From Dehalococcoidia bacterium (GTDB lineage: Bacteria > Chloroflexota > Dehalococcoidia > Lucifugimonadales > JAGWBF01), in contig JAGWBJ010000014.1 in NCBI GenBank assembly GCA_021295955.1, positions 1 through 64,000 on the forward strand: a DNA stretch of 64,000 nt. Direction: 5' to 3'. The position numbers and the translations under genes are program-made. Position 1 is the stretch's first letter. Every line of letters starts with the position of its first letter. A model generated the notes under the pieces. The model was not told the origin of the DNA. It ran no database searches and saw only the letters and a program-made list of their open reading frames with translations. Shown piece by piece: positions 25,796 through 39,335 of the stretch.

Positions 25796-26225
25796 GAAGA
25801 ACCTGGAGCTGGTGAAGGAGCTGCTGGACGCCATGCGGGCCCACGATATCCGCAAGGGAACGTCCTTCTACGCCGAGGACAGCGTGCTGGACATGATCCC
25901 CGTCCGGGGGGTGGTCCGCGGGCCCCAGGGGTTGGCCGCGGCGTGGGGAATGGCCTGGACGGCCTTCCCCGACCAGTACTACAGGGAGGACAACATCTTC
26001 GCCTACGGCGACTACGTCTGCTTTGAGGGGGTGATGGGAGGGACCCAGCAGGGGATGTACCTGGGCCTCCCGCCCACGGGCAAGAGCATGTCCGTCCGGG
26101 TGTGCTTCGTCTGGCGCATCGAAGACGGCAAGGTGAAGGAGTGGCACTCCTACTGGGACGCCGCGGACCTCCTTCGCCAGATGGGGATCATCCCCCAGAG
26201 CACCGGCCTGCCCTTGGAGGAGTAG
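25785..26225 (+). CDS. SnoaL-like ester cyclase family protein
   Basis: A 146-residue NTF2/SnoaL-fold protein (alpha+beta barrel). Family signs are ELVKELLDAMRAHDIRKGTSFYAEDSVLDMIP, an AFPDQYYREDNIFAYGDYVCFEGVMGGTQQG segment, and VCFVWRIEDGKVKEWHSYWDAADLLRQMGI. Members are cyclases, hydrolases or isomerases acting on polyketides or small lipophilic compounds. An AAGGAGG-type site lies before the ATG. It overlaps the MFS gene and precedes an alcohol dehydrogenase-like gene. Confidence 0.88.
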   Translation: MSTEKNLELVKELLDAMRAHDIRKGTSFYAEDSVLDMIPVRGVVRGPQGLAAAWGMAWTAFPDQYYREDNIFAYGDYVCFEGVMGGTQQGMYLGLPPTGKSMSVRVCFVWRIEDGKVKEWHSYWDAADLLRQMGIIPQSTGLPLEE

Positions 26226-26288
26226 CAGACGCGGCGGGCCGGGCCCAATTTTCGTGACCCCATATTTGCGAACAGACGGAGGCATCCC

Positions 26289-27317
26289 ATGAAGGTAGCC
26301 TGGTTCCGCGAGTTCGGAGGACCGGAGGTCCTCACCTACGAAGAGGCCCCCGACCCGGAGCCCGAGCCGGGAGAGGCGCTGGTCCGGGTCCGGGCCACCG
26401 GCGTGAACCACGTGGACCTGGACATGCGGGCCGGCGTGTCCCGCTTCCCCATCACCTTCCCCCATACCCTGGGGCTGGAGTACTCGGGGGAGGTGGCCGC
26501 CATTCGCGGCGGAGGCGGCCGCGTCAAGGAGGGGGACCGGGTCTGGGTGTTCAACCGGATCCCCTGCGGGTCCTGTGAATACTGCATGAGCGGCCGGGAC
26601 AACCTGTGCGTCCAAGGGGGCGACCGGGGACGGCGGGTCCCGGGAGGCTACGCCCAGCTCGTCACCCTGCCCGTCTCCGCCCTCCGGCCCATGCCCGACC
26701 ACGTGCCCTTCGAGGACGCGGCGGCGGCGCCCATCGCCTTCGGCACGGCCTGGCACGTGTTGATCAACCGGGGCGGGCTCCAGGCCGGGGACACGGTGCT
26801 GATCCAGGCCGCCGGGTCGGGCATCGGCAGCGCCGCCATCCAGATCGCCCGCCACGCCGGCGCGACCATCATCACCACCGCCAGCACCGACGAGAAGCTG
26901 GCCAGGGCGGCGGAGATGGGCGCCCACCATACCATCAACTACGCCAGGGAGGAGTTCCCCCAGCGGGTGAGGGATCTGACCGGCGGCCGGGGAGTCGACC
27001 TGGTGATGGAGCACGTGGGCGGGGAGGTGTTCACCAAGAGCCTGGAATGCCTCAAGAGGGACGGGGCCATCGTCACCGTGGGCGGCCACAGCGGGGAGGT
27101 GGTCCCCTTCGACATCATCCCCTTCTTCCGCAACGAGTACCGGCTGCTGGGCTCCAGCGGGGCAACCCGCCCGGAGCTCATGAGGGTGATGGAGATGGTG
27201 TTCCAGGGCGCCTTCCGGCCCGTGGTCTCCCGGGTCCTGGACCTGTCCCAGGCGGCCGAGGCCCACCGGCTGGTGGACTCCCGGGACTTCTTCGGCAAGG
27301 TGCTGTTGACACCGTAG
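26289..27317 (+). CDS. Zinc-binding alcohol dehydrogenase-like protein
   Basis: A 342-residue medium-chain dehydrogenase/reductase. Structural zinc cysteines C93, C96, C99 and C107 are all present (CGSCEYCMSGRDNLC). The catalytic-zinc Cys seen in true alcohol dehydrogenases is replaced by Asn-His (N40-H41), so it may work like quinone oxidoreductases. NAD(P)-binding AAGSGIGSAAIQIARHAGA and VMEHVGGEVF follow. GGAGG lies six bases before the ATG. Confidence 0.9.
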   Translation: MKVAWFREFGGPEVLTYEEAPDPEPEPGEALVRVRATGVNHVDLDMRAGVSRFPITFPHTLGLEYSGEVAAIRGGGGRVKEGDRVWVFNRIPCGSCEYCMSGRDNLCVQGGDRGRRVPGGYAQLVTLPVSALRPMPDHVPFEDAAAAPIAFGTAWHVLINRGGLQAGDTVLIQAAGSGIGSAAIQIARHAGATIITTASTDEKLARAAEMGAHHTINYAREEFPQRVRDLTGGRGVDLVMEHVGGEVFTKSLECLKRDGAIVTVGGHSGEVVPFDIIPFFRNEYRLLGSSGATRPELMRVMEMVFQGAFRPVVSRVLDLSQAAEAHRLVDSRDFFGKVLLTP

Positions 27318-27338
27318 CCCTCATACGGCGCCCACTGT

Positions 27339-27455
27339 CATTCCGACCCCCGAGCCAGATTCCAGGGACAGGCCGGGCATTCCGACCCCCGAGCCAGATT
27401 CCAGGGACAGGCCGGGCATTCCGACCCCCGAGCCAGATTCCAGGGACAGGCCGGG
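27339..27455. repeat. 39-bp direct repeat, three exact copies
   Basis: Units at 27339-27377, 27378-27416 and 27417-27455, each starting CATTCCGACCCCCGAGCCAG. There is no spacer between units, so this is a tandem repeat and not a CRISPR array. Confidence 0.9.
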
Positions 27456-27550
27456 GCCGTCTTCGGATACGATGAAGGCAGGGCCAGTGAATCCCGCCGT
27501 GCCCCAGGCTGTCATTACTCTGAAAATCGGTCTCAGCACCCCATCGGTCT

Positions 27551-27734
27551 CTCCCGCGAAAGCGGGAGTCCACGGCGCCCGATAGTGGATTCCCGCGTGC
27601 GCGGGAATGACGATGGTTAAGTCCCCTTCGTTTTCATGCTCTTACTTGGCCTTCACAAGGCCCTGGGAAATTCCGAACGGAGCGCAGCGAAGTGAGGAAT
27701 CTGTCCAACCCTGGGTTCCGGCCTGCGCCGGAAC
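27551..27734. repeat. REP-like hairpin cluster
   Basis: Palindromes CTCCCGCGAAAGCGGGAG (27551-27568) and ATTCCCGCGTGCGCGGGAAT (27589-27608), spaced as in the copy at 4630-4687, plus GTTCCGGCCTGCGCCGGAAC (27715-27734). The gap 27318-27833 has no supported gene. Confidence 0.75.
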
Positions 27735-27833
27735 GATGTGTAGGGCGGGGCCGTGCCGCACTGCAGACGAGGAACGGTCTGTTGGGCGGAATGAGACGAG
27801 GGGCTGCCCCGCGCCTGGTCGGGTTGCCTGCAG

Positions 27834-28751
27834 CTATCCCTGCCAGTGGGCCGGGAGTATGGTCCCCGCCAGGCCGAACTGCCGCGTGACCCACTCCTCG
27901 ACGTACACGTTGTCCTTGAAGCCCGAGTACCGGGTCTTGTTCACCTCGGGGGCGGTCCCCAGGGCCGACGTGAGGGGGGCCAGGGCGGCGCCGCTCAGCA
28001 GGTCGCCGTCGCCCTCGGTCATGACCAGGGAGGGCACTTTCACCCTGGGGGCAAACCAGCGCAGGTCGAAGTAGGACAGAGTGCGGGCAACCGCGTCCCG
28101 CTGGGAGGGGTCGTGGCGCAGGTAGTCGTTGACCTCCTGGAGCGGGTACGCCTCCGTGCGCGGCGCGGCGTCCGCCGTGGCGAAGAACATGGCCGGGGTG
28201 CAGACCAGGTGGGTGAGGCCCGAGCCCAGGGCGGCGGTCACCAGGGCCAGGTCGCCGCCCATGGCGACCACCTTGCTGCCATCCACCTCGGGCCGCGTAA
28301 CCAGGTACTCCAGCGCCCTCAGGCAGTCGGCCACGATGCCCCGGTAGACGTACGCCTCGCGGTGGGAGATGCCGTGGGTCAGCAGGCCTGGGAAGGCCGC
28401 GGCGAAGGGTTGGTCCGCTCCCCTCTGGCCCCTGACGCCCACGGAGAAGGTGACGTACTCCCGGCGCTGGGCGTTGGTGAATCCCTGGGGTATCTGCTCC
28501 ACCACGCTGCCGTACCTGGGCAGGTAGTAGCGGGTGGGAAAGGGTCCCGCGCCCTTGGGGATGCTCAGGTGGGCGAAGATGCGGTAGGGGCCGATGGAGG
28601 TCATGTGGACGACGTAGGCGGTGGCGTAGTCGGTGGAGCGGAGGGGCAGCTCGTCGACCTCGGGGACCGCCGGGATGCCCGCCAGCTCCTCCTGGACCGA
28701 TGTCCAGTAGACATCGAAGTCATCGGGCCTGTTGTCCGTCAGTGTAGTCAT
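27834..28751 (-). CDS. Acetyl xylan esterase-like protein lacking the catalytic serine
   Basis: A 305-residue paralog of the esterase at 13833-14759, with the same N-terminal DDFDVYWTSVQEELAGIPAVPEVDELPL pattern and the FPGLLTHGISHREAYVYRGIVADCLRALEYL segment. Where the active paralog has GVTGHSQGGGLAITT, this one has VVAMGGDLALVTA (161-173): the G-x-S-x-G elbow is gone. It is probably not an esterase; a binding or regulatory role is possible. GAGGAAGG lies seven bases upstream of the ATG. It starts 33 bp after the linalool dehydratase-like gene on the same strand and is likely cotranscribed. Confidence 0.8.
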   Translation of the reverse strand: MTTLTDNRPDDFDVYWTSVQEELAGIPAVPEVDELPLRSTDYATAYVVHMTSIGPYRIFAHLSIPKGAGPFPTRYYLPRYGSVVEQIPQGFTNAQRREYVTFSVGVRGQRGADQPFAAAFPGLLTHGISHREAYVYRGIVADCLRALEYLVTRPEVDGSKVVAMGGDLALVTAALGSGLTHLVCTPAMFFATADAAPRTEAYPLQEVNDYLRHDPSQRDAVARTLSYFDLRWFAPRVKVPSLVMTEGDGDLLSGAALAPLTSALGTAPEVNKTRYSGFKDNVYVEEWVTRQFGLAGTILPAHWQG

Positions 28752-28784
28752 GGCACGCCTTCCTCGGGGCCTGTGTCGAGACTT

Positions 28785-30326
28785 CTATCGACCCTGGACA
28801 TGGACCAGGACGGTATGCTCGGCCACGGTGGTCTGGATTTCTATGTCCCCGTCCACCGCTCTCCAGCTCTCGGATACCTCCCCGTCGACTCTTACGAGGC
28901 AGTCATTTGGATTTACGTTGGTCACGCGGAACGACGTTGGCCTTCCGGAAGCCGCCGGCAGTCCCCTGTCCGTGGCGACCACCAGGCATTTCTTGTCGGC
29001 ATCGTAGTAAGCCTGTGAGAGACAGACGGTGGGAAAGTCTACGCCGTATACCGTAGGCTCGATGAACTTCTTCAGGTTGGGCTCGTTGTAGATACGCCAC
29101 GTGGCGTCACGAGAGACCGCCTCGGCCTCGGCCATCTGCCCATTGTACTGGCCTCGGGGGTAAGGCTCGTTGAGACCGAAGCCCCAGGTGAACTCGCCCG
29201 ACGCCTCATCCCAGGTCGGCTCGTAGTTCTCCTCCGCGTGGGCCTTGAGCTTGGCGTAGATCGCATCCTCGCCAAACTCCCTGGCCAAGACCAGTCCGAG
29301 GATCGTGCCCTTGGGAGTACGCTCGAGGGTCTTGAGGTCCGTCGTGCTGTCCACCACCTCCCCGGACTCGTTCCAACCCAGGAATTGGGCGGCTCCCTCG
29401 AACAGCAACCTGGCATCCTCATGCTTATGGCCCAGAAGCCCGTGGGACAGCAGGAGATGCCCCCCCGCATTCGTCATGAACCGGTAGTCGATAATAGGGT
29501 CATACATGAAGACCGACGAGTCCTTAGCCGACCCCGTTACGCTCCGAAGTCCGTAGATCTCCTTTGCCTGCTCCCACCAGCCGTTGAACACCCGGTGATG
29601 GTCGGTCCCGTAGAGTATATCGGTAAGCCTCAGACCGAGGCCGGCTCCGGCCAGTCAATGTGGCCAGATCTTTGTATTCTCTCAATGGCAACCCTCAGCG
29701 ACCTTCGACCACTGCCGCGCCAGGTGGTCGGCGATGGAAGTATGCGACCACGTGAAGGTGTTCTCCCCGTCGCGTATCAGGTCGAAGGGCTGGTCCCATT
29801 TCTCGTCCCCGGTCACGTAGAGGTGGAACCCCAGCATCATCAGGAACCAACCTTTGAAGTTCAGGTTCCCGTCCGCTCCGATGGGGTCCATCTGAAGGCC
29901 CCACGGCTCCACGCCGTTGGCCGTCCAGCCGGGGACGTCGTACTGGCCCCTGAGATGCTTGGGAATGCCGAAGTCGTACCAGTTCTCCTGGTAGCTGGCG
30001 CGTCTGGGGTCGGGGCCGATCTGGTCGAGCCAGTCCTTGGCCGCCCAGTATCCGGTATGCCTGTACAGCATCTCGTCGAGTATCCTGCCGTACACCTCAC
30101 GCCAGGCAGGTGTGGTATCGGCCATCAGCGGTATTGCAAAGCTGGTGACCTCCAGGTCCATCCTGTGCCATGACCCGATGGGTTCGTTGGTAATCGCATC
30201 CCAATGTGGGTGCGGCTGCCCTTCTTTGTCCCAGTTGTCTTCGGTCGTGGCCTTCCGGTACAGGTACCTGAGCCAACCGCGAGTCCGGTCGGAGATTGCA
30301 GGGTATCCCCGAATCATCTTTGCCAT
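28785..30326 (-). CDS. Linalool dehydratase-isomerase family protein with two in-frame UGA (probable selenocysteine) codons
   Basis: One 513-codon frame interrupted by TGA at 29682-29684 (codon 215) and 29655-29657 (codon 224). Read through, the centre is CHUENTKIWPHULAGAG, then LRLTDILYGTDHHRVF. This aligns with CEPDNYFVQC...VYDRLHGTDY of the Castellaniella linalool dehydratase-isomerase: the two UGAs fall exactly on active-site C171 and C180, nine residues apart. Upstream homology: GSWHRMDLEVTSFAIPLMAD, GYWAAKDWLDQIGPDP, NLNFKGWFLMMLGFHLYVTG. Downstream: FMTNAGGHLLLSHGLL and a beta-rich C-terminal part (about 420-513). The family folds as an alpha6-alpha6 barrel and hydrates/isomerises terpenoid alkenes through cysteines; the substrate here is unknown. 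GAGG lies seven bases before the ATG. The alternative, two nonsense mutations, is unlikely. Confidence 0.82.
29627..29654 (-). promoter_or_regulatory. Candidate bacterial SECIS after the second UGA
   Basis: A 5-bp stem GCCTC/GAGGC (29641-29637 with 29631-29627) encloses the loop GGUCU, which begins 19 nt after the UGA. Loop sequence and distance equal those of the E. coli fdhF SECIS as I recall it. A GGCCGG-AG-CCGGCC palindrome overlaps the lower part. No comparable loop follows the first UGA. Confidence 0.65.
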
Positions 30327-30368
30327 ACGCTATCCTCGAGGGTCCATTTGTACGTAGGGTCGGTGTCG

Positions 30369-30398
30369 ATTTTACAGCATTTGCTCAGGTCAGGACAA
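30369..30398 (-). promoter_or_regulatory. Promoter for the linalool dehydratase-like gene
   Basis: On the minus strand: TTGTCC (30398-30393), 18-bp spacer, TAAAAT (30374-30369), 42 bp before the start codon. Confidence 0.5.
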
Positions 30399-30505
30399 GC
30401 AAAGCCACTCCAACCCCCTACGGGTCGATTCGCTCGATTGACGAGCAGCCCCGCGGGTCCGACGGCCCTGTCCATGCCCGATTCCCCGTATGATCGCCCA
30501 TCTGG

Positions 30506-30514
30506 TGATATAAT
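30506..30514 (+). promoter_or_regulatory. Extended -10 promoter for the DUF169 gene
   Basis: TGATATAAT: a consensus TATAAT with upstream TGn, 45 bp before the DUF169 start. The -35 region is poor, as expected for an extended -10. Confidence 0.6.
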
Positions 30515-30559
30515 GCGGGTGGCCCCCGGCGATCTCGCAAGGAGTGGAGAGGACGATAC

Positions 30560-31261
30560 ATGAGATACTCGGAAACGGCCCGGCTGCTGGTGGCCGAGCT
30601 GGACCTGCGCTTTCCCCCAGCGGCCCTGGCCTTCGTGGACGAGCCGCCGCCCGGCATACCCAGGACCGATACCGTGGAGCCCTCGAGCTGCGCCTTCTGG
30701 CGCCGGGCGGAGGAGAAGGTCTTCTACGCAGCCGCGGAAGACCATTTCAACTGCCCTTTGGGAACCATGGTCATGGGACTGCCCTTGCCGGAGGCGCAGA
30801 TGGCGCAGCTGCAGGACGCGGTTGGGATGATGTGCGGCCTGTCTTACGTCCGAGAAGAGGAGGTGGAGCACGTCCCGAAAGTGGACCGGGCTTCCACCGG
30901 CATTGTCTATGGGCCGTTGGAGCAGTTCCCCATGGAGCCGGCGGCGGTGCTGCTCTGGCTCACGCCCAAGCAGGCCATGGTGATGAGCGAGTGTTTCGGC
31001 CTGATGAACTGGGCCGCGGGCCCCGCCGGGATCCTGGGCCGGCCGGGGTGCGGCGCCATTCCGATAGCCCTGTCCGGCGGCCGGCCGGCCCAATCCTACG
31101 GATGCACCGGCATGAGAATCAACACCGGCCTACCGGAGGAGCTGTTGCTCATGGTCCTTCCCGGGAGCGTGTTGGGCGGTGTCTCCGCGGAGCTGGACCG
31201 GATTCGTGAGGTCCACCGGCAGATGGAGGCCCACTACCACGAGCGGATAGCCAGCCTCTGA
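30560..31261 (+). CDS. DUF169 family protein
   Basis: A 233-residue DUF169 (PF02596) protein of unknown function. Typical features are the N-terminal helix with LLVAELDLRFPPAALAF, conserved cysteines in PSSCAFWRRA and DHFNCPLGTMVMGL, and the C-terminal SYGCTGMRINTGLPEELLLMVLPGS. The cysteines may bind a metal or cofactor. It diverges from the linalool dehydratase-like gene with 233 bp between them containing promoters for both, so the two may be co-regulated. Confidence 0.85.
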   Translation: MRYSETARLLVAELDLRFPPAALAFVDEPPPGIPRTDTVEPSSCAFWRRAEEKVFYAAAEDHFNCPLGTMVMGLPLPEAQMAQLQDAVGMMCGLSYVREEEVEHVPKVDRASTGIVYGPLEQFPMEPAAVLLWLTPKQAMVMSECFGLMNWAAGPAGILGRPGCGAIPIALSGGRPAQSYGCTGMRINTGLPEELLLMVLPGSVLGGVSAELDRIREVHRQMEAHYHERIASL

Positions 31262-31351
31262 TTCCTCCTGCCCTACCCACCCCGGGCCAGTGCATCCCCC
31301 GCTCGCCGGAGAAAGGTCGAACCGCGCTTTGGCCAGAGGGACGATAGGCGG

Positions 31352-32302
31352 CTAGAACACGGCCAGGGGGTTGGCGGGAGACCCGGTGGCGCCCTGGACC
31401 TTGAGGGGCGACACCACGAGCATGAACTCGTAGCGGCCCTCTTCCTGGCAGGCCTCGGCCAGGGGTTGCAGCAGGCAGTTGTCCAGCAACGAGATGCCGT
31501 AGGCGTATATGGCGCAGTGGACCGGGTTGGGGAAGTCGTAGCCGTCGGGGTACGCGTCCATCATGTCCCAGGCCAGGGCCGATATGTCGTTGTCCCGGAT
31601 GAAGGGGAGGCAGGAGGCGTGGAGGCCGGGCTTGCTGATCCTCACCAGGTCGTCCAATATCTCCTGGGTCCCGTAGGTCACGTCGGGATGGTCGGCCTGC
31701 CACTTCTCCCGGCCGCTGTACACCGCCACGACGTCGCCGGGCTGGATGGCTATCCCCTGGGCCTTGGCGGCGTCCTCCAAGTCCCAGCCGTGGACGGGGT
31801 TGTCCTCGGTCACGTAGGGCACCCCCCGCAGCCTGGGGATGTCCAGCAGGACGCCCCGGGTGAGCACGCCGTCGCTCCAGACGTCGATGCCTCCCCACTT
31901 GGAGCCGTCGAAGGTCAGCTCCTCCTTGGGGTCCCGGCCGTTCCACATGCCGTCGGCGCCCCAAACGTGGCAGAGGGCGTCGATGTGGGTGAAGGCCCTG
32001 CCGTGGTAGAAGGCCCCCAGGAAGTCCGAGGCCGAGCCCCGGTCTCCCTCGTCGTGGCGGTAGCTGGCCTTCATGTAGTGCTGGGCCGGGTACAGGTTCC
32101 CCGCCACTCCCCCCGTCTTCCAGTACCTGCTCATGGACACGGTCCTGCCGCTGCGGACCAGCCGCGTCGCCGCGACCCTCTTCTCGTCGGTGATCAGGTT
32201 CATGGCTCCCCGCTCATCGTCGGGGCCCCAGCGGCCCCAGTTGTTCCGGTCCGTGAGGTAGGCCATGACCTCTTCCCGGGTGGGTACCCTTCTCTCTGAC
32301 AT
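31352..32302 (-). CDS. Cyclase family protein (kynurenine formamidase-like), paralog 3
   Basis: A 316-residue metal-dependent hydrolase of the cyclase/kynurenine formamidase family (PF04199). The metal-binding motif is H100-x5-H106-x-D108-x3-H112 in YHGRAFTHIDALCH. Conserved GWDLEDAAKAQGI and HASCLPFIRDNDISALAWDMMD follow. Start supported by AGGAGG six bases upstream. It is the last of three tandem paralogs on the minus strand and shares much of its sequence with them, including the C-terminal GATGSPANPLAVF. Substrate probably an N-formyl amide, ester or lactone. Confidence 0.9.
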   Translation of the reverse strand: MSERRVPTREEVMAYLTDRNNWGRWGPDDERGAMNLITDEKRVAATRLVRSGRTVSMSRYWKTGGVAGNLYPAQHYMKASYRHDEGDRGSASDFLGAFYHGRAFTHIDALCHVWGADGMWNGRDPKEELTFDGSKWGGIDVWSDGVLTRGVLLDIPRLRGVPYVTEDNPVHGWDLEDAAKAQGIAIQPGDVVAVYSGREKWQADHPDVTYGTQEILDDLVRISKPGLHASCLPFIRDNDISALAWDMMDAYPDGYDFPNPVHCAIYAYGISLLDNCLLQPLAEACQEEGRYEFMLVVSPLKVQGATGSPANPLAVF

Positions 32303-32323
32303 TTCCGCCTCCTGATGGGTTGA

Positions 32324-33250
32324 CTAGAACGTGGCGATGGGGTTGGCGGGGGAGCCCGTGCCGCCCGCCACCCTCAGGGGCGCCACCGTGAGCATGAACT
32401 CGTAGCGCCCCTCCTCCCGGCAGGCCTCGGACAGGCCCTGGAGGAGGCAGTTGTCCAGCAGCGCGACGCCGTAGGCAAAAATGGCCGCGTGGACGGGCAG
32501 GCTGATCCGGTAGCCTTCGGGCTGAAGGTCCATCATGTCCCAGGCCAGCACCGACACGTCGTTGTCCCTGAGGAAGGGGAGGCACGACGCGTGCAGGCCC
32601 GGCTTCGTCTTAGGGTCGACGGTGCCGTAGACGTCCTCCGGGTGGGCCTCCTGCCACTTCTCCCGGCCGCAGTAGACAGCGACGGCGTCACCGGGCTCCA
32701 CGGTTATCCCCTGGGCCCTGGCGGCGTCCTCCAGGTCCCAGCCGTGGACGGGCTTGTCCTGGGTCACGTAGGGCTCCCCCCGCAGACCGGGGATGTCCAG
32801 GAGCACGCCCCGGGTCATCAATCCCTCGGCCCACTTGTCGATGCCCCCGAAACGGGCGCCCTCGTAGCCGACCTCGACCTTGGGGTCCCGCCCGTTCCAC
32901 ATCCCCTCGGAGCCCCACACGTGGCAGAGGGCGTCCATGTGGGTCACCGTCCGGCCGTGGTAGAAGACGCCGTAGTAGTCCAGAGCCCCGCCGCCGTCCC
33001 CCAGCTCCCGCTCGATGACCTGCATGTAGTGCTGGGCCGGGTGGGGGTTCCCGATCCCCGGCGTCTTGGGAAAGTAGCGGCTGAGGGTGACGGCACGACC
33101 GCTGCGGACCAGCCGGGCCGCGGAGACCCGCTTCTCGGGAGTGACCAGGTTGAGGGCGCCCATCTCGTCGTCGGGCCCCCACCGGCCCCAGTTGGCCCTG
33201 TCCCTCAGGTACGAGAGCACCTCGTCGTGGCTGGGGACCCGTCTCTCCAT
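32324..33250 (-). CDS. Cyclase family protein (kynurenine formamidase-like), paralog 2
   Basis: A 308-residue paralog, the middle of the tandem trio. The motif is FYHGRTVTHMDALCH, with the same His/His/Asp/His ligands. Compared with its neighbours it is about 8-13 residues shorter between the catalytic GREKWQ segment and KPGLHASCLPF, where the other two have extra residues after TYGTQ. AGGAGG lies nine bases upstream of the ATG. Ends 21 bp before paralog 3. Confidence 0.9.
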   Translation of the reverse strand: MERRVPSHDEVLSYLRDRANWGRWGPDDEMGALNLVTPEKRVSAARLVRSGRAVTLSRYFPKTPGIGNPHPAQHYMQVIERELGDGGGALDYYGVFYHGRTVTHMDALCHVWGSEGMWNGRDPKVEVGYEGARFGGIDKWAEGLMTRGVLLDIPGLRGEPYVTQDKPVHGWDLEDAARAQGITVEPGDAVAVYCGREKWQEAHPEDVYGTVDPKTKPGLHASCLPFLRDNDVSVLAWDMMDLQPEGYRISLPVHAAIFAYGVALLDNCLLQGLSEACREEGRYEFMLTVAPLRVAGGTGSPANPIATF

Positions 33251-33307
33251 ATGCGAACGCCTCCTGACCGAGCTGTCCGCCCGCCCTCCTGCGGGAGGGC
33301 GGGGCTC

Positions 33308-34273
33308 CTAGAACATGGCGATGGGGTTGGCCGGGGAGCCGGTCCCGCCGGCCACCTTCAGGGGCGCCACCGTCAGCATGAACTCGTACCTGCCCTCCTC
33401 CCGGCACACCTCGGCCAGGGGCTCCAGGAGGCAGTTGTCCAGCAGGGCAATGCCGTAGGCGAAGATGGCCCCGTGCACGGACCAGGGGAGGTCGTAGCCG
33501 TCGGGGGCCAGGTCCATCATGTCCCAGGCCAGCACCGACACGTCGCTGTCCCGCAGGAAGGGGAGGCACGAGGCATGGAGGCCCGGCTTCTCTGGGCCCT
33601 GGCCGTAGGCGCAGTCGTCGGGCTTATGTTCCAGGGGCCTGCCCTGGGTGCCGTAGGTGTTGTCCGGGTGGGCGGCCTGCCACTTCTCCCGGCCGCTGTA
33701 TACGGCCACCGCGTCCCCCGGCTCGATGGTCACGCCCTGGGCCCTGGCGGCGTCCTCCAGGTCCCAGCCGTGGACCGGCTTCTCCTGGGTCACGTAGGGC
33801 TCGCCCCGGAGCATGGGTATATCCAGTAGCACGCCCCGGGTGAAGATGCCCCCTTCCCAGACGTCGATTGCCCCCCAGGTGGCGCCGTCGAAGGTGATCT
33901 CCCGTTGCGGGTCCCGGCCGTTCCACATCCCGTCGTCGTCCCACACGTGGCACAGGGCGTCGATGTGGGTGGCGGCCCGCCCGTGGTAGGAGATGCCGTA
34001 GTAGTCCATGGCGCCGCCGCCGCTGCCCCGGCTGGCGGTGAACATGTAGTGCTGCGCCGGGTTGACGTTGCCCGGGGCCCTGGTCTTGGGGAAGTACCTG
34101 CTCAGGGAGACGGTCCGGCCCGTGCGGACCAGCCTGGTCGCGGCCACCCGCTTCTCGGGGGTGACCATGTTCATGGCCCCCACCTGGTCGTCGGCGCCCC
34201 ACCGCCCCCAGTTCCGGCGCTCCTTCAGGTAAGAGAGCACCTCTTGCCTGGTCGGAAGCCTTCTGTCGCTCAT
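33308..34273 (-). CDS. Cyclase family protein (kynurenine formamidase-like), paralog 1
   Basis: A 321-residue paralog and the first of the trio in transcription order. The metal motif is SYHGRAATHIDALCH. It carries an insert (GRPLEHKPDDCAYGQGPE) before the HASCLPFLRDSD segment. GGGAGA lies five bases before the ATG. The three copies share N-terminal NNWGRWGPDDE-type and C-terminal TGSPANP motifs, which indicates local duplication; retained differences suggest different substrates. Confidence 0.9.
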   Translation of the reverse strand: MSDRRLPTRQEVLSYLKERRNWGRWGADDQVGAMNMVTPEKRVAATRLVRTGRTVSLSRYFPKTRAPGNVNPAQHYMFTASRGSGGGAMDYYGISYHGRAATHIDALCHVWDDDGMWNGRDPQREITFDGATWGAIDVWEGGIFTRGVLLDIPMLRGEPYVTQEKPVHGWDLEDAARAQGVTIEPGDAVAVYSGREKWQAAHPDNTYGTQGRPLEHKPDDCAYGQGPEKPGLHASCLPFLRDSDVSVLAWDMMDLAPDGYDLPWSVHGAIFAYGIALLDNCLLEPLAEVCREEGRYEFMLTVAPLKVAGGTGSPANPIAMF

Positions 34274-34296
34274 GTGGTCTCCCGGCTTTCTCTCGG

Positions 34297-34336
34297 TCTC
34301 ACCTTAGTCTCACCTTAGTCTCACCTTAGTCTCACC
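34297..34336. repeat. 11-bp tandem repeat
   Basis: TCTCACCTTAG repeated three times, with a partial fourth copy, just upstream of the cyclase trio. Confidence 0.85.
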
Positions 34337-34372
34337 TCAAGGGGCTCCCGCGCGGCGGGGAGTGGCCCGGGC

Positions 34373-35128
34373 CTATCTCGGCGAGTCCTGAAGGGCCGCG
34401 AGCCCCTCCACCTGGAGGCCGTAGCCCAGCATATCCTGCATCTGCCGCTTGAGCTGCATGGTCAGCACCGTCCGGGTGTACCGGAGGGTCAGGGGAGACT
34501 TCCGGGCGAGCAGCTCGGCCACCTCCCACGCCCGGGCCATGAGCCGGTCCCTGGGGAGCACCTCGTTGACCAGCCCCAGCTCCTGGGCGTCCCGGGCGGA
34601 GAGGGTCTGGCCCATGAGCAGGAAGTACCGCGCCCGGTTCAGGCCCATCAGCAGGGGGAACACCACGTGGACTCCGTCCCCGGGCACCAGCCCCGCGGGG
34701 AAGTGGGGAGCGTCCTGGAAAGCGGCGTTCTCCGAGGCCAGCACGATGTCCGACATGAGGGGTATCTCGGCGTGGTACAGGGCCGGGCCGTTGACGGCGC
34801 TGATTATGGGCACCTCGATGTCGAGCAGATTGAGCAGGAGCCTCTTGCCCTCCCAGTAGATGGTGTCCCACTGGATGGGCTGGCTCCTGGGGGCCACCCC
34901 CTCCACCGGGTACTCGGCACAATAGTCGTCGCCGGTGCCCGTGATTATGATGACCCTGTTCTCCGGGTCGCTGCCCACGTCGGTGAAGGCGTACCCGAAC
35001 TCCCTGTGGGGAATCTCCCCCCACTTGAGCGGGCCGCCGTCGGTGTGGAACGTCATCTGCAGGATGCCGTCCCGCCTCTCCATGGCGATGCTCTGGTACC
35101 GGTCTGCGTACTCGTCGAATCGGGCCAT
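34373..35128 (-). CDS. Enoyl-CoA hydratase/isomerase family protein
   Basis: A 251-residue crotonase-fold protein. Typical elements are VIIITGTGDDYCAEY, the AVNGPALYHAEIPLMSDIVLASENAAFQDAP segment, LVPGDGVHVVFPLLMGLNRARYFLLMGQTLSARDAQELGLVNEVLPRDRL, and the C-terminal helix. The usual oxyanion GGG turn is altered (GPALYHA), so hydratase activity is not certain. The ATG at 35128 is at the expected position; GGAAGG lies 11 bases upstream. Its gene starts near the promoter of the divergent NTF2-like gene. Confidence 0.85.
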   Translation of the reverse strand: MARFDEYADRYQSIAMERRDGILQMTFHTDGGPLKWGEIPHREFGYAFTDVGSDPENRVIIITGTGDDYCAEYPVEGVAPRSQPIQWDTIYWEGKRLLLNLLDIEVPIISAVNGPALYHAEIPLMSDIVLASENAAFQDAPHFPAGLVPGDGVHVVFPLLMGLNRARYFLLMGQTLSARDAQELGLVNEVLPRDRLMARAWEVAELLARKSPLTLRYTRTVLTMQLKRQMQDMLGYGLQVEGLAALQDSPR

Positions 35129-35228
35129 GTCGGTACCGGCCTTCCGTCGGGAGCTTGGACTCCGCCGCCCGCGTGCCGGGCACGCTGGGGGCTGGGGTAT
35201 GGGCACTATTCTATGGGAAGCGGTGCCT

Positions 35229-35257
35229 TTGTCAAGCGCGGTGTATTGGGGTATATT
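35229..35257 (+). promoter_or_regulatory. Promoter for the NTF2-like genes
   Basis: TTGTCA at 35229-35234, 17-bp spacer, TATATT at 35252-35257. Transcription from it would cross the 12-bp repeat array before the first gene. Confidence 0.6.
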
Positions 35258-35296
35258 GTTGGCACCCCGCTCGGTCGGGACGAGCACCATATCCCC

Positions 35297-35380
35297 CGGT
35301 CTGGACGCCGGCCTGGGCCCCGGTCTGGGCCCCGGTCTGGGCCCCGGTCTGGACCCCGGTCTGGGCCCCGGTTTGGGGGA
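35297..35380. repeat. 12-bp tandem repeat
   Basis: About seven units of GGTCTGGGCCCC with variants (GGCCTGGGCCCC, GGTCTGGACCCC, GGTTTGGGGGAG) between the promoter and the first NTF2-like gene. The period is a multiple of three, so a frame stays open (Gly-Pro-Gly-Leu repeats) and joins the gene, but I place the start after the repeat. Confidence 0.85.
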
Positions 35381-35396
35381 GCCTGTGAGGGCAGCC

Positions 35397-35888
35397 ATGG
35401 ACCTGGAGGAGCTGGAGAATCGGGTCAGGGCCCTGGAGGACGTCGAGGCCATCAGGAAGATGAAGGTCCTCTACGCCGAGGCCTGCGACATCAACGCCGA
35501 TCCCGCCGTCCCCTACGACGCCGGGGCGATAGCCGGCCTGTTCACCGAGGACGCCGTCTTCGACCCCGGGCCCCTGGGAGACAAGATCCAGGGCAGAGAG
35601 GCCATTCGGCAGGCCTTCAGCAACTCGCCCACCTGGATGTCCTTCGCCGTGCACTACGTCAACAACCCCATCATCGAGGTGGACGGCGACACGGGCAAGG
35701 GGACCTGGTACCTCCTGCAGGCGGCCACCTTCATCAACGGAAACCGGGCCGTGTGGGGCTCGGGCAGGTACGACGAAGAGTACGCCAAGGTGAACGGGGA
35801 GTGGAAGATCAGTAGCTGGAAGCTGACCTCCTTCTTCTGGACCCCCTTCGACGAGGGGTGGGCCAAGACCCAGTTCGCCGACATGTAG
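35397..35888 (+). CDS. NTF2-like (SnoaL_4) protein, copy 1
   Basis: A 163-residue SnoaL-like/nuclear transport factor 2 fold protein. It begins with a helix MDLEELENRVRALEDVEAIRKMKVLYAEACD, then IAGLFTEDAVFDPGP, FAVHYVNNPIIEVDGDTGKGTWYLLQ and SGRYDEEYAKVNGEWKISSWKLTSFFWTPFD. Such proteins are dehydratases, isomerases or dioxygenase small subunits. GAGGG lies five bases before the ATG; upstream GTG at 35385 is an alternative. A close paralog follows 31 bp downstream. Confidence 0.85.
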   Translation: MDLEELENRVRALEDVEAIRKMKVLYAEACDINADPAVPYDAGAIAGLFTEDAVFDPGPLGDKIQGREAIRQAFSNSPTWMSFAVHYVNNPIIEVDGDTGKGTWYLLQAATFINGNRAVWGSGRYDEEYAKVNGEWKISSWKLTSFFWTPFDEGWAKTQFADM

Positions 35889-35919
35889 CGAGGGCCGGGC
35901 ACCGGCGGGAGGTGGCGGC

Positions 35920-36402
35920 GTGGCGACAATGGGCGTGGCGACAATGGAGGAGCTGGAGAGGCGCCTCAGGGTCCTGGAGGACATGGAGGCCATCAGAAGG
36001 CTGAAGGCCCGGTACTGCGCCTACTGCGACGACGGCTACGACGCCGACGGCATCGCCGGCCTCTTCACCGAGGACGCCGTGTGGGACGGCGGCATCAGGG
36101 GCAGGGCCGAGGGCCGGGAGGGGATACGGGCGTTCTTCCAGCGGGCGCCCCTGCGGCTGCCCTTCGCCGTACACATGGTAATGAACCCCGTCATCGAGGT
36201 CGACGGCGATACGGCACGGGGGACTTGGTACCTGTTCCAGCCGTGCACCTTTGCCGACGGCGACAGGGCGGTTTGGGGGTCGGCCCGCTACGACGAGGAG
36301 TACGTCAGGGTCGACGGCGCGTGGATGTTCCGCTCCCTCAAGCTCACGTCATTCTTCTGGACGCCCTTCGACCGGGGCTGGGCCCGGGAGCGCTTCGCCT
36401 AG
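35920..36402 (+). CDS. NTF2-like (SnoaL_4) protein, copy 2
   Basis: A 152-160-residue paralog of the previous gene: MEELERRLRVLEDMEAIRRLKARYCAYCDDGYD, IAGLFTEDAVWDGG, FAVHMVMNPVIEVDGDTARGTWYLFQP, SARYDEEYVRVDGAWMFRSLKLTSFFWTPFD. GTG at 35920 has GGGAGG seven bases upstream; ATG at 35944 matches the paralog's start better. A GGCGTGGCGACAAT duplication lies at the N-terminus. The two copies may form a heteromer or act on related substrates, followed by an SDR in the same operon. Confidence 0.85.
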   Translation: MATMGVATMEELERRLRVLEDMEAIRRLKARYCAYCDDGYDADGIAGLFTEDAVWDGGIRGRAEGREGIRAFFQRAPLRLPFAVHMVMNPVIEVDGDTARGTWYLFQPCTFADGDRAVWGSARYDEEYVRVDGAWMFRSLKLTSFFWTPFDRGWARERFA

Positions 36403-38467: not shown

Positions 38468-38505
38468 GGCCGCGTAGCCCGGCGCCAGGCCCAAGGAGGA
38501 TGAAG

Positions 38506-38895
38506 ATGGCAACCCTGACCATAGCTTTGATGGACCCCCCCTACGAGTCGGAGACCACCACCACCGCGCTGCGGATAGTGGACGCGGCGGTCAAGAAGGG
38601 CCACAAGGTGAACGTCTTCGCCTACGAAGGCGCGGTGAACCTCACCATGGCCGACCAGAAGGCCCACCCCAACCCCGTCCACGGCACCACCGTGGAGGAG
38701 GAGCAGCACCCCACCACCGCCAACTTTATCGCCGCCCTGTTCAAGACCGAGCTGGTGGACTGGATCAACTGCGGCCTGTGCGTCGACGAGCGGGGCTCGG
38801 GCAACTGGATCGAGGGCGCCCGCAGGGGGGCCCCGGCCGACTTCCTGAAGTGGTCCACCGAAAGCGTAAACACCCTGGTGATGGCCACCAAGTAG
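38506..38895 (+). CDS. DsrE-family protein 2
   Basis: A 129-residue DsrE-like protein: TLTIALMDPPYESETTTTALRIVDAAVKKGHKVNVFAYEGAVNL, with conserved cysteines in the WINCGLCVDERG segment, positioned like the sulfur-accepting Cys of DsrE. AAGGAGG lies six bases before the ATG at 38506 (ATG at 38500 is too close). Lies 38 bp after copy 1. Confidence 0.85.
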   Translation: MATLTIALMDPPYESETTTTALRIVDAAVKKGHKVNVFAYEGAVNLTMADQKAHPNPVHGTTVEEEQHPTTANFIAALFKTELVDWINCGLCVDERGSGNWIEGARRGAPADFLKWSTESVNTLVMATK

Positions 38896-38951
38896 GGATG
38901 CCGTAGCCGGTACCTGGAAACATCCCCGGAGCACCGCTTGAGGGAGGCGAC

Positions 38952-39335
38952 ATGGCGAAGATTCTCTCGATTTCCGAGAGGGCGTACCACGGGACCATAG
39001 AGGAGCAGGACGACACCATCATCTGGATGACCCACATCCTGAAGAACGGCGGGGCCGACATCTCCCTGCTGCTGCGGGGCAACGCCGTAAACTACACGGT
39101 CCGCGGCCAGGACGCCGGCGGGCTCAGCTTCGGCGGCGAGAAGATGGAGGTGGGGCCTCAGATCGACAGGGACATCGCGGAGATCATAAAGGCCGGTGTG
39201 CCAACCTACGCCGTCCGCGAAGACCTGGACGACCGGGGCATCCAGGAGGGGGAGATCGCCCAGGGAGTCCGGCTTGTGAGCCGCAAAGAGGTGGCCGACC
39301 TGTATGACTCCCACGACGCCATCTGGCACTGGTAG
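38952..39335 (+). CDS. DsrE-family protein 3
   Basis: A 127-residue DsrE/DsrF-like protein: AKILSISERAYHGTIEEQDDTIIWMTHILKNGGADISLLLRGNAVNYTV, ending VSRKEVADLYDSHDAIWHW. No Cys is present in the usual position. The three DsrE-like genes resemble a DsrEFH-type heterohexamer set, and they immediately precede a molybdenum hydroxylase, an enzyme class whose cofactor needs sulfuration. That link is inference. Confidence 0.78.
   Translation: MAKILSISERAYHGTIEEQDDTIIWMTHILKNGGADISLLLRGNAVNYTVRGQDAGGLSFGGEKMEVGPQIDRDIAEIIKAGVPTYAVREDLDDRGIQEGEIAQGVRLVSRKEVADLYDSHDAIWHW

Follow-up and report, generated by a model that had tools for sequence, protein, structure and literature searches.

The linalool dehydratase-isomerase (Ldi) of Castellaniella defragrans, which is represented by the solved chains 5hlr, 5g1u and 7ad2 and belongs to the Pfam family PF18566, possesses two cysteines, C170 and C179, that must be reduced, and replacement by alanine or serine at these positions results in an inactive enzyme (available part of PMC6600392). 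Both acid/base and covalent catalysis are debated as its mechanism (PMC6600392 and PMC6013536, each in excerpt). Prokaryotic selenoproteins were compiled in 2026 in a table of 119 families, some of them with Haft and Tolstoy 2025 as reference, and the same paper prints rules for bacterial selenocysteine insertion (SECIS) elements, which concern the loop, the stem, the position of a G, a spacing of 16-37 nt and an energy of -7.5 kcal/mol (excerpt of PMC13188914).

The stretch of DNA analysed here (the window, 64,000 nt) stems from an uncultured member of the Dehalococcoidia and contains on its minus strand, at 28785..30326, an Ldi-like gene of 513 amino acids whose codons 215 and 224 are predicted to specify selenocysteine (Sec); it was delimited by its open reading frame, the Pfam match and profile alignment. 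Very probably this gene encodes a selenoprotein of the Ldi family in which Sec is inserted at both UGA codons by the organism's own SelA, SelB, SelC and SelD, the second UGA being directed by a SECIS element, and in which the Sec pair replaces the catalytic cysteines.

The Ldi-like frame and its two UGA codons

The frame extends from an ATG at 30324-30326 to a TAG at 28785-28787 and is interrupted by just two internal stops in 513 codons, both TGA and nine codons apart. Coordinates, length and spacing had been given in the same way by the first-pass annotation of this DNA and proved right when the frame was read again. UGA 1 (29682..29684, minus strand) is codon 215 and UGA 2 (29655..29657, minus strand) is codon 224; both stand in columns which hold Cys in homologs and correspond by alignment to C170 and C179 of the Castellaniella enzyme.

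With both codons read through, the protein matches PF18566 with an E-value of 1.9e-15 and 57.7 bits (cut-off 26.1), and no other Pfam family is matched at E 0.001 or better. At the same threshold NCBIfam yielded zero matches for six proteins, namely the Ldi-like protein, three relatives and two neighbours. None of the solved structures was matched in a search with the single Ldi-like sequence; a profile of six rows (the protein and five relatives) matches the Castellaniella Ldi chains 7ad2, 5hlr, 5g1u and others at an E-value of about 2e-13. In this alignment, and likewise with a profile of 13 rows, HCENTKIWPFC is aligned gap-free to VCEPDNYFVQC of Castellaniella Ldi, and a profile-profile comparison with six Ldi-like proteins (probability 99.8, E 2.9e-28) pairs the same two columns. 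Both TGAs thus stand at the two catalytic cysteines of Ldi. The first-pass annotation had proposed the gap-free match to CEPDNYFVQC, and the alignment to solved chains bears it out; its placement of the UGAs at two conserved active-site cysteines is upheld by this alignment together with the mutagenesis of C170 and C179 described in the available part of PMC6600392. Judged from its sequence, the window protein is a distant relative of Ldi.

A signal peptide is not obvious by eye. AlphaFold2, run on a two-row alignment of two proteins, gave a mean pLDDT of 33.3, too low for the model to be used in judging an (alpha,alpha)6 fold. An assignment of the other active-site residues of Ldi in the N-terminal part was dropped, as the profile-profile alignment is too loose there.

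Relatives, the two sites and the genomic surroundings

Among 197 genomes searched as relatives, matches were found in the own genome and in one further genome only (G141). The latter carries, in a single chromosome record of 4.38 Mb from an uncultured member of the Dehalococcoidia (OX638345.1, locus L001), a gene 68% identical to that of the window with TGA at both codons, the one close relative that a scan of genome contigs turned up; it represents a second species from another family than the window genome. In a profile search, 13 of 393 genomes of the class were matched, the own one included; they comprise eight close homologs and five distant Ldi proteins. In this set TGA/TGA occurs in the own genome and in G733, G836 and G844 (one genus, of another family), TGC/TGA at codons 215/224 in G767 and G782, and Cys codons at both sites in G704 and G804. 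A Pfam search over 400 genomes of the phylum likewise matched 13 including the own genome, among them G531 and G425 with three close Cys/Cys homologs. Furthermore, a homolog lies on two Streptomyces plasmids, and the copy examined at both sites is Cys/Cys. In total, TGA/TGA was found in five genomes of three genera, TGC/TGA in two and Cys/Cys in six close relatives. Zero new carriers were found in the 44 genomes of the order of G733 (E up to 1e-30), and zero relatives in viral contigs scanned by protein, profile and DNA pattern or in the phages searched. The first-pass annotation had proposed a search for other U/U, U/C and C/U versions; the first and the last of these were found, and the combination TGA/Cys is absent from the genomes and loci compared.

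In an alignment of 13 rows, columns 215 and 224 are the sole ones with Cys throughout, TGA being counted as Cys, and the Glu adjoining site 215 is kept in 13/13 rows. Codon 215 is TGA in all five TGA/TGA genes and TGC in the other eight. Five distant Ldi proteins were compared at both columns outside this alignment: L025 has Gly at column 224 (local alignment), the one exception among the proteins compared to the expectation of Cys in homologs, and in L020, L052, L053 and L055 both columns are Cys. The distant Pfam matches L024, L026-L031 and L056 lie outside the column comparison, and L002, L003, L012, L018 and L044, as repeats of the window or L001 gene, outside the locus comparison. The Cys/Cys homologs from Chloroflexota and Streptomyces (L023, L032, L033, L022, L046, L049) show 37-49% identity to the window gene over nearly the whole length, and five of the six share ENTKIWP between the sites. 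They differ from it in having TGC/TGC (TGC/TGT in L046) and in a broken hairpin after site 224.

The part of the gene beyond the UGAs is maintained as protein, less strictly than the upstream part: between window and L001 the NG86 dN/dS is 0.14 before the UGAs (0.189/1.351) and 0.22 after them (0.299/1.332), with identities of 74% and 63%, respectively. Between L045 and L047, dS was not computable. A pseudogene or a sequencing error at both codons might be thought of in a draft genome (2.56 Mb in 30 contigs, 87.68% complete, 7.04% contamination). However, the same two TGAs recur in five assemblies, of which one is the 4.38-Mb chromosome record, and the frame has no other stops and a dN/dS of 0.22 past the UGAs, so that this explanation has a negligible probability. 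That chance nonsense mutations are implausible had already been argued in the first-pass annotation, and the occurrence of both TGAs in L001 and in three genomes of one genus strengthens the argument.

In a tree of the homologs the seven TGA genes lie on one side of a branch with support 97/95. Within them the two Cys/Sec genes are sister to the five Sec/Sec genes, which form a group with support 90/90. If the root is assumed to lie among the Cys/Cys proteins, Sec would have been gained stepwise from a Cys/Cys ancestor, at site 224 before site 215, one clade holding the Cys/Sec form and another the Sec/Sec form.

An alpha/beta hydrolase gene (AXE1, PF05448; 27834..28751, minus strand) begins with its start codon 33 nt past the stop of the Ldi-like gene and is probably located on the same transcript. 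Alpha/beta hydrolases also adjoin the Ldi-like gene in G733, G836 and G531 and are one gene off in Streptomyces; the small number of neighbours scanned in L001, G767, G704 and G804 included no such gene, and G782, G844 and G425 lay outside the scan. At most, the neighbouring hydrolases hint that the pathway includes an ester or lactone. Upstream, in divergent orientation, a DUF169 gene (PF02596) is present at 30560..31261 (plus strand), and a gene of the same family is likewise divergent beside the L001 homolog (L001 1978-2802, minus strand). Further along the window, three similar cyclase-like genes follow each other at 31352-34273 (minus strand), of which 31352-32302 was identified as PF04199 and the other two by sequence likeness. 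A row of small genes resembling DsrE by eye, one with a Cys-x2-Cys motif, lies at 38500-39335 (plus strand). In the region 26000-36000, which was scanned for repeats, a 39-bp unit is tandemly repeated in three perfect copies at 27339-27455, and short arrays of tandem repeats are located at 34296-34337, 35294-35377 and 35917-35947.

Selenium decoding and candidate SECIS elements

All four genes of the Sec system, selA, selB, selC and selD, which the first-pass annotation had named as a check, are present in the own genome. A tRNA-Sec was found with 71.2 bits, and ARAGORN, run on this best own match (L004) with the 14 weaker own matches, two of them above the cut-off, left aside, agrees and gives the anticodon TCA. 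Matches to selA and selB reach 530.7 bits (cut-off 267.9) and 365.3 bits (cut-off 242.25). The selD frame is open only if one TGA, codon 11 in the matched stretch, is translated. This selD (L036 1531-1533, G000:C6) itself looks like a selenoprotein gene, with the sequence CAG-U-AAKF, and downstream of the TGA lies a hairpin that can be drawn with 7 bp and the loop GGUCC or with 8 bp and the loop GUC. Together with the columns of Cys or TGA, the sel genes support the proposal that Sec is present at both sites, which would make both UGAs Sec codons.

ARAGORN confirms a tRNA-Sec in G141, G531, G425, G733, G844, G767, G782, G704 and G804; none was found in G836, a genome 75% complete. Three of the four other TGA/TGA genomes (G836 being the exception) and both TGC/TGA genomes thus have the tRNA. 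As it also exists in Cys/Cys genomes of the phylum, the Sec system alone does not separate the forms. In the Cys/Cys genome G704 one contig carries both the Ldi-like gene and, about 3 kb away, a tRNA-Sec gene (L070, G704:C54), and a second tRNA-Sec copy of equal score, perhaps a contig overlap, is located at the end of C40.

An overall use of TGA as a sense codon by this organism is a reading practically certain to be wrong. No supporting point was seen; TGA ends 14 of 50 window ORFs, which were picked by a rough rule and include some antisense frames that are not genes. Ordinary TGA stops are found in the Pfam-identified DUF169 gene of the neighbourhood and in the Ldi-like homologs of L001 and L050. 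In addition, the Ldi-like frame has no further TGA, and the full Sec system is present.

A putative SECIS element for UGA 2 was recognised by covariation at 29626..29642 (minus strand), with a 6-bp stem and the loop GGUCU, which starts 18 nt past the UGA. The hairpin covers codons 229-234 and can form in all seven TGA genes with a GGUCU or GGUUU loop. In the six distinct sequences 36/36 cells of the stem are paired, and four cells in two pairs are changed on both sides (C-G to U-A). The paired percentage, the number of double-change cells and the covariation score were equalled in 1/500 shuffles. Two other measures do not rise above the shuffles: 164/500 had as many pairs with changes on both sides, and 500/500 as many further pair types. 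Partners slid along the stem were paired to 17-53%. The test used six of the seven TGA sequences, since L048 and L047 do not differ over the 72 nt. All six pairs form in 7/7 TGA genes versus 3-4 of six in 6/6 Cys/Cys genes. One compensatory change alters both amino acids (Leu230 to Phe and Arg233 to Lys in f56), which argues that the pairing is maintained despite the change in coding.

This hairpin agrees with the printed rules for loop size, stem length, position of the G and spacing (excerpt of PMC13188914). The -7.5 kcal/mol of the same source is reached in the window, in L001 and in the two f56 genes, and the g410 genes attain -7.0 only, which includes flanking pairs; the 17-nt hairpin by itself has -6.2 to -6.5 kcal/mol in g410 and f56 genes. 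Hairpins which comply with the rules are common, as they follow 65 of 488 codons of the Ldi-like gene at -7.5 kcal/mol or better. After UGA 2, shuffle z-scores of single sequences were not significant, nor was the conservation of synonymous sites (p 0.15).

A second hairpin lies between the UGAs (29646..29668, minus strand), with UGA 2 in its loop, and was considered as a possible element for UGA 1. It is strong in the window and in L001. It has 79% of its cells paired and zero compensatory changes, and its register is shifted in the g410 genes; because of this lack of covariation and the shifted register it is kept as no more than a possible SECIS of UGA 1. The element of UGA 2 is 45 nt away from UGA 1 and thus outside the 16-37 nt in the excerpt of PMC13188914. 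With covariation confined to the element after UGA 2, and with Cys/Sec relatives in which one Sec suffices, one may ask whether UGA 2 alone is read as Sec, UGA 1 being decoded inefficiently or by another route (near-cognate reading or Cys insertion), so that the main product would be Cys/Sec-like or truncated. We consider this improbable: codon 215 is TGA in every TGA/TGA gene across three genera, the remaining 8 of 13 genes have TGC there, and the codons past the UGAs are under constraint at the protein level. Under the preferred reading the ribosome would insert Sec co-translationally at both UGAs, at UGA 2 guided by the bacterial-type hairpin to which the covariation points.

Possible chemistry and comparison with known systems

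The two Sec residues would take the place of the reduced catalytic Cys pair of Ldi beside the conserved Glu. The protein may be a barrel enzyme in which Sec215-Glu216 and Sec224 face the substrate. Its chemistry may be of the Ldi type: an alkenol-like substrate would be (de)hydrated or isomerised, and the Sec pair would contribute the acid/base or covalent catalysis. The pKa of a selenol is much below that of a thiol, and selenols are ionised at neutral pH. A role as nucleophile or base would therefore fit better than that of a protonated acid, and by the same reasoning a well-working Sec/Sec enzyme would favour the nucleophile or base over the protonated general acid in the debate on the mechanism of Ldi. 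To a more specific model we give an even chance: a cofactor-free hydro-lyase/isomerase with two catalytic Sec residues, which carry out acid/base or covalent (selenoether), non-redox chemistry on a C=C bond or alkenol. This model includes a series from Cys/Cys over Cys/Sec to Sec/Sec preserved among present-day Dehalococcoidia, and the decoding of two UGAs, at a distance of 27 nt, within a single message. If true, Sec at both catalytic positions of a dehydratase/isomerase family would widen the known uses of Sec, and the series would make the effect of each Sec measurable inside one family.

The selenoprotein could instead use its Sec pair for redox reactions, as a diselenide or selenenyl-sulfide switch or in a peroxidase-like site. 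Most uncharacterised selenoproteins are likely to have redox functions (excerpt of PMC13188914), Ldi and the related linalool isomerase require reductants for activity (PMC6600392 and PMC4791888, in part), and a C-x-U motif (Cys213-His-Sec215) exists in the window and L001 proteins. However, Cys213 occurs in 5/13 rows and is missing from the other TGA/TGA genes, a UxxC motif is absent, and Ldi is the only Pfam family matched at E up to 0.001. Moreover, the two cysteines of Ldi must stay reduced (PMC6600392, in part), and Sec stands in the catalytic pair with the adjoining Glu invariant in the 13 rows. A redox role is thus a serious alternative, although an unlikely one, and the dehydratase/isomerase pair is preferred.

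Prokaryotic selenoproteins with two Sec residues per protein, as in the window protein, are known (e.g. MbdU, TsoB and a metal-binding UxxU protein; PMC13188914, Table 1). In this table, many rows of which are without a motif, no family is described as related to Ldi or as PF18566, and a U-x8-U motif is not listed. In the open-licence full-text literature searched, linalool dehydratase never occurs together with selenoprotein or selenocysteine, SAR202 and selenoprotein were not found together, and PF18566 is not named. The terms linalool, dehydratase, isomerase and Chloroflex are absent from the deep-Sep paper (PMC12013277), and UGA, opal and UCA from the available part of a paper on Cys coding in Chloroflexi (PMC5424206). 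The suggestion of the first-pass annotation that this use of Sec is unreported in the enzyme family therefore holds for the 119-family table and for the open-licence literature searched. Within the literature searched by family names and motifs, the protein represents a new family of selenoproteins, and one of an unusual enzyme type.

Compared with Castellaniella Ldi, the match covers profile positions 141-375 only, and the window protein is about 140 residues longer (513 versus about 372 in the crystal chains). The disulfide C48-C101 of the Castellaniella enzyme, which caps the active site, is absent in the Ldi-like family, in which no further Cys column is conserved (13 rows), and is a feature of that enzyme and not of the Pfam definition; in its YKGHL motif a His is found where Ldi-like proteins have Trp, Phe or Tyr. 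Shared by both is the gap-free Cys-Glu...Cys motif with eight residues between the cysteines, followed by YD.L.GTD, and in this motif the window protein has Sec predicted in place of both cysteines.
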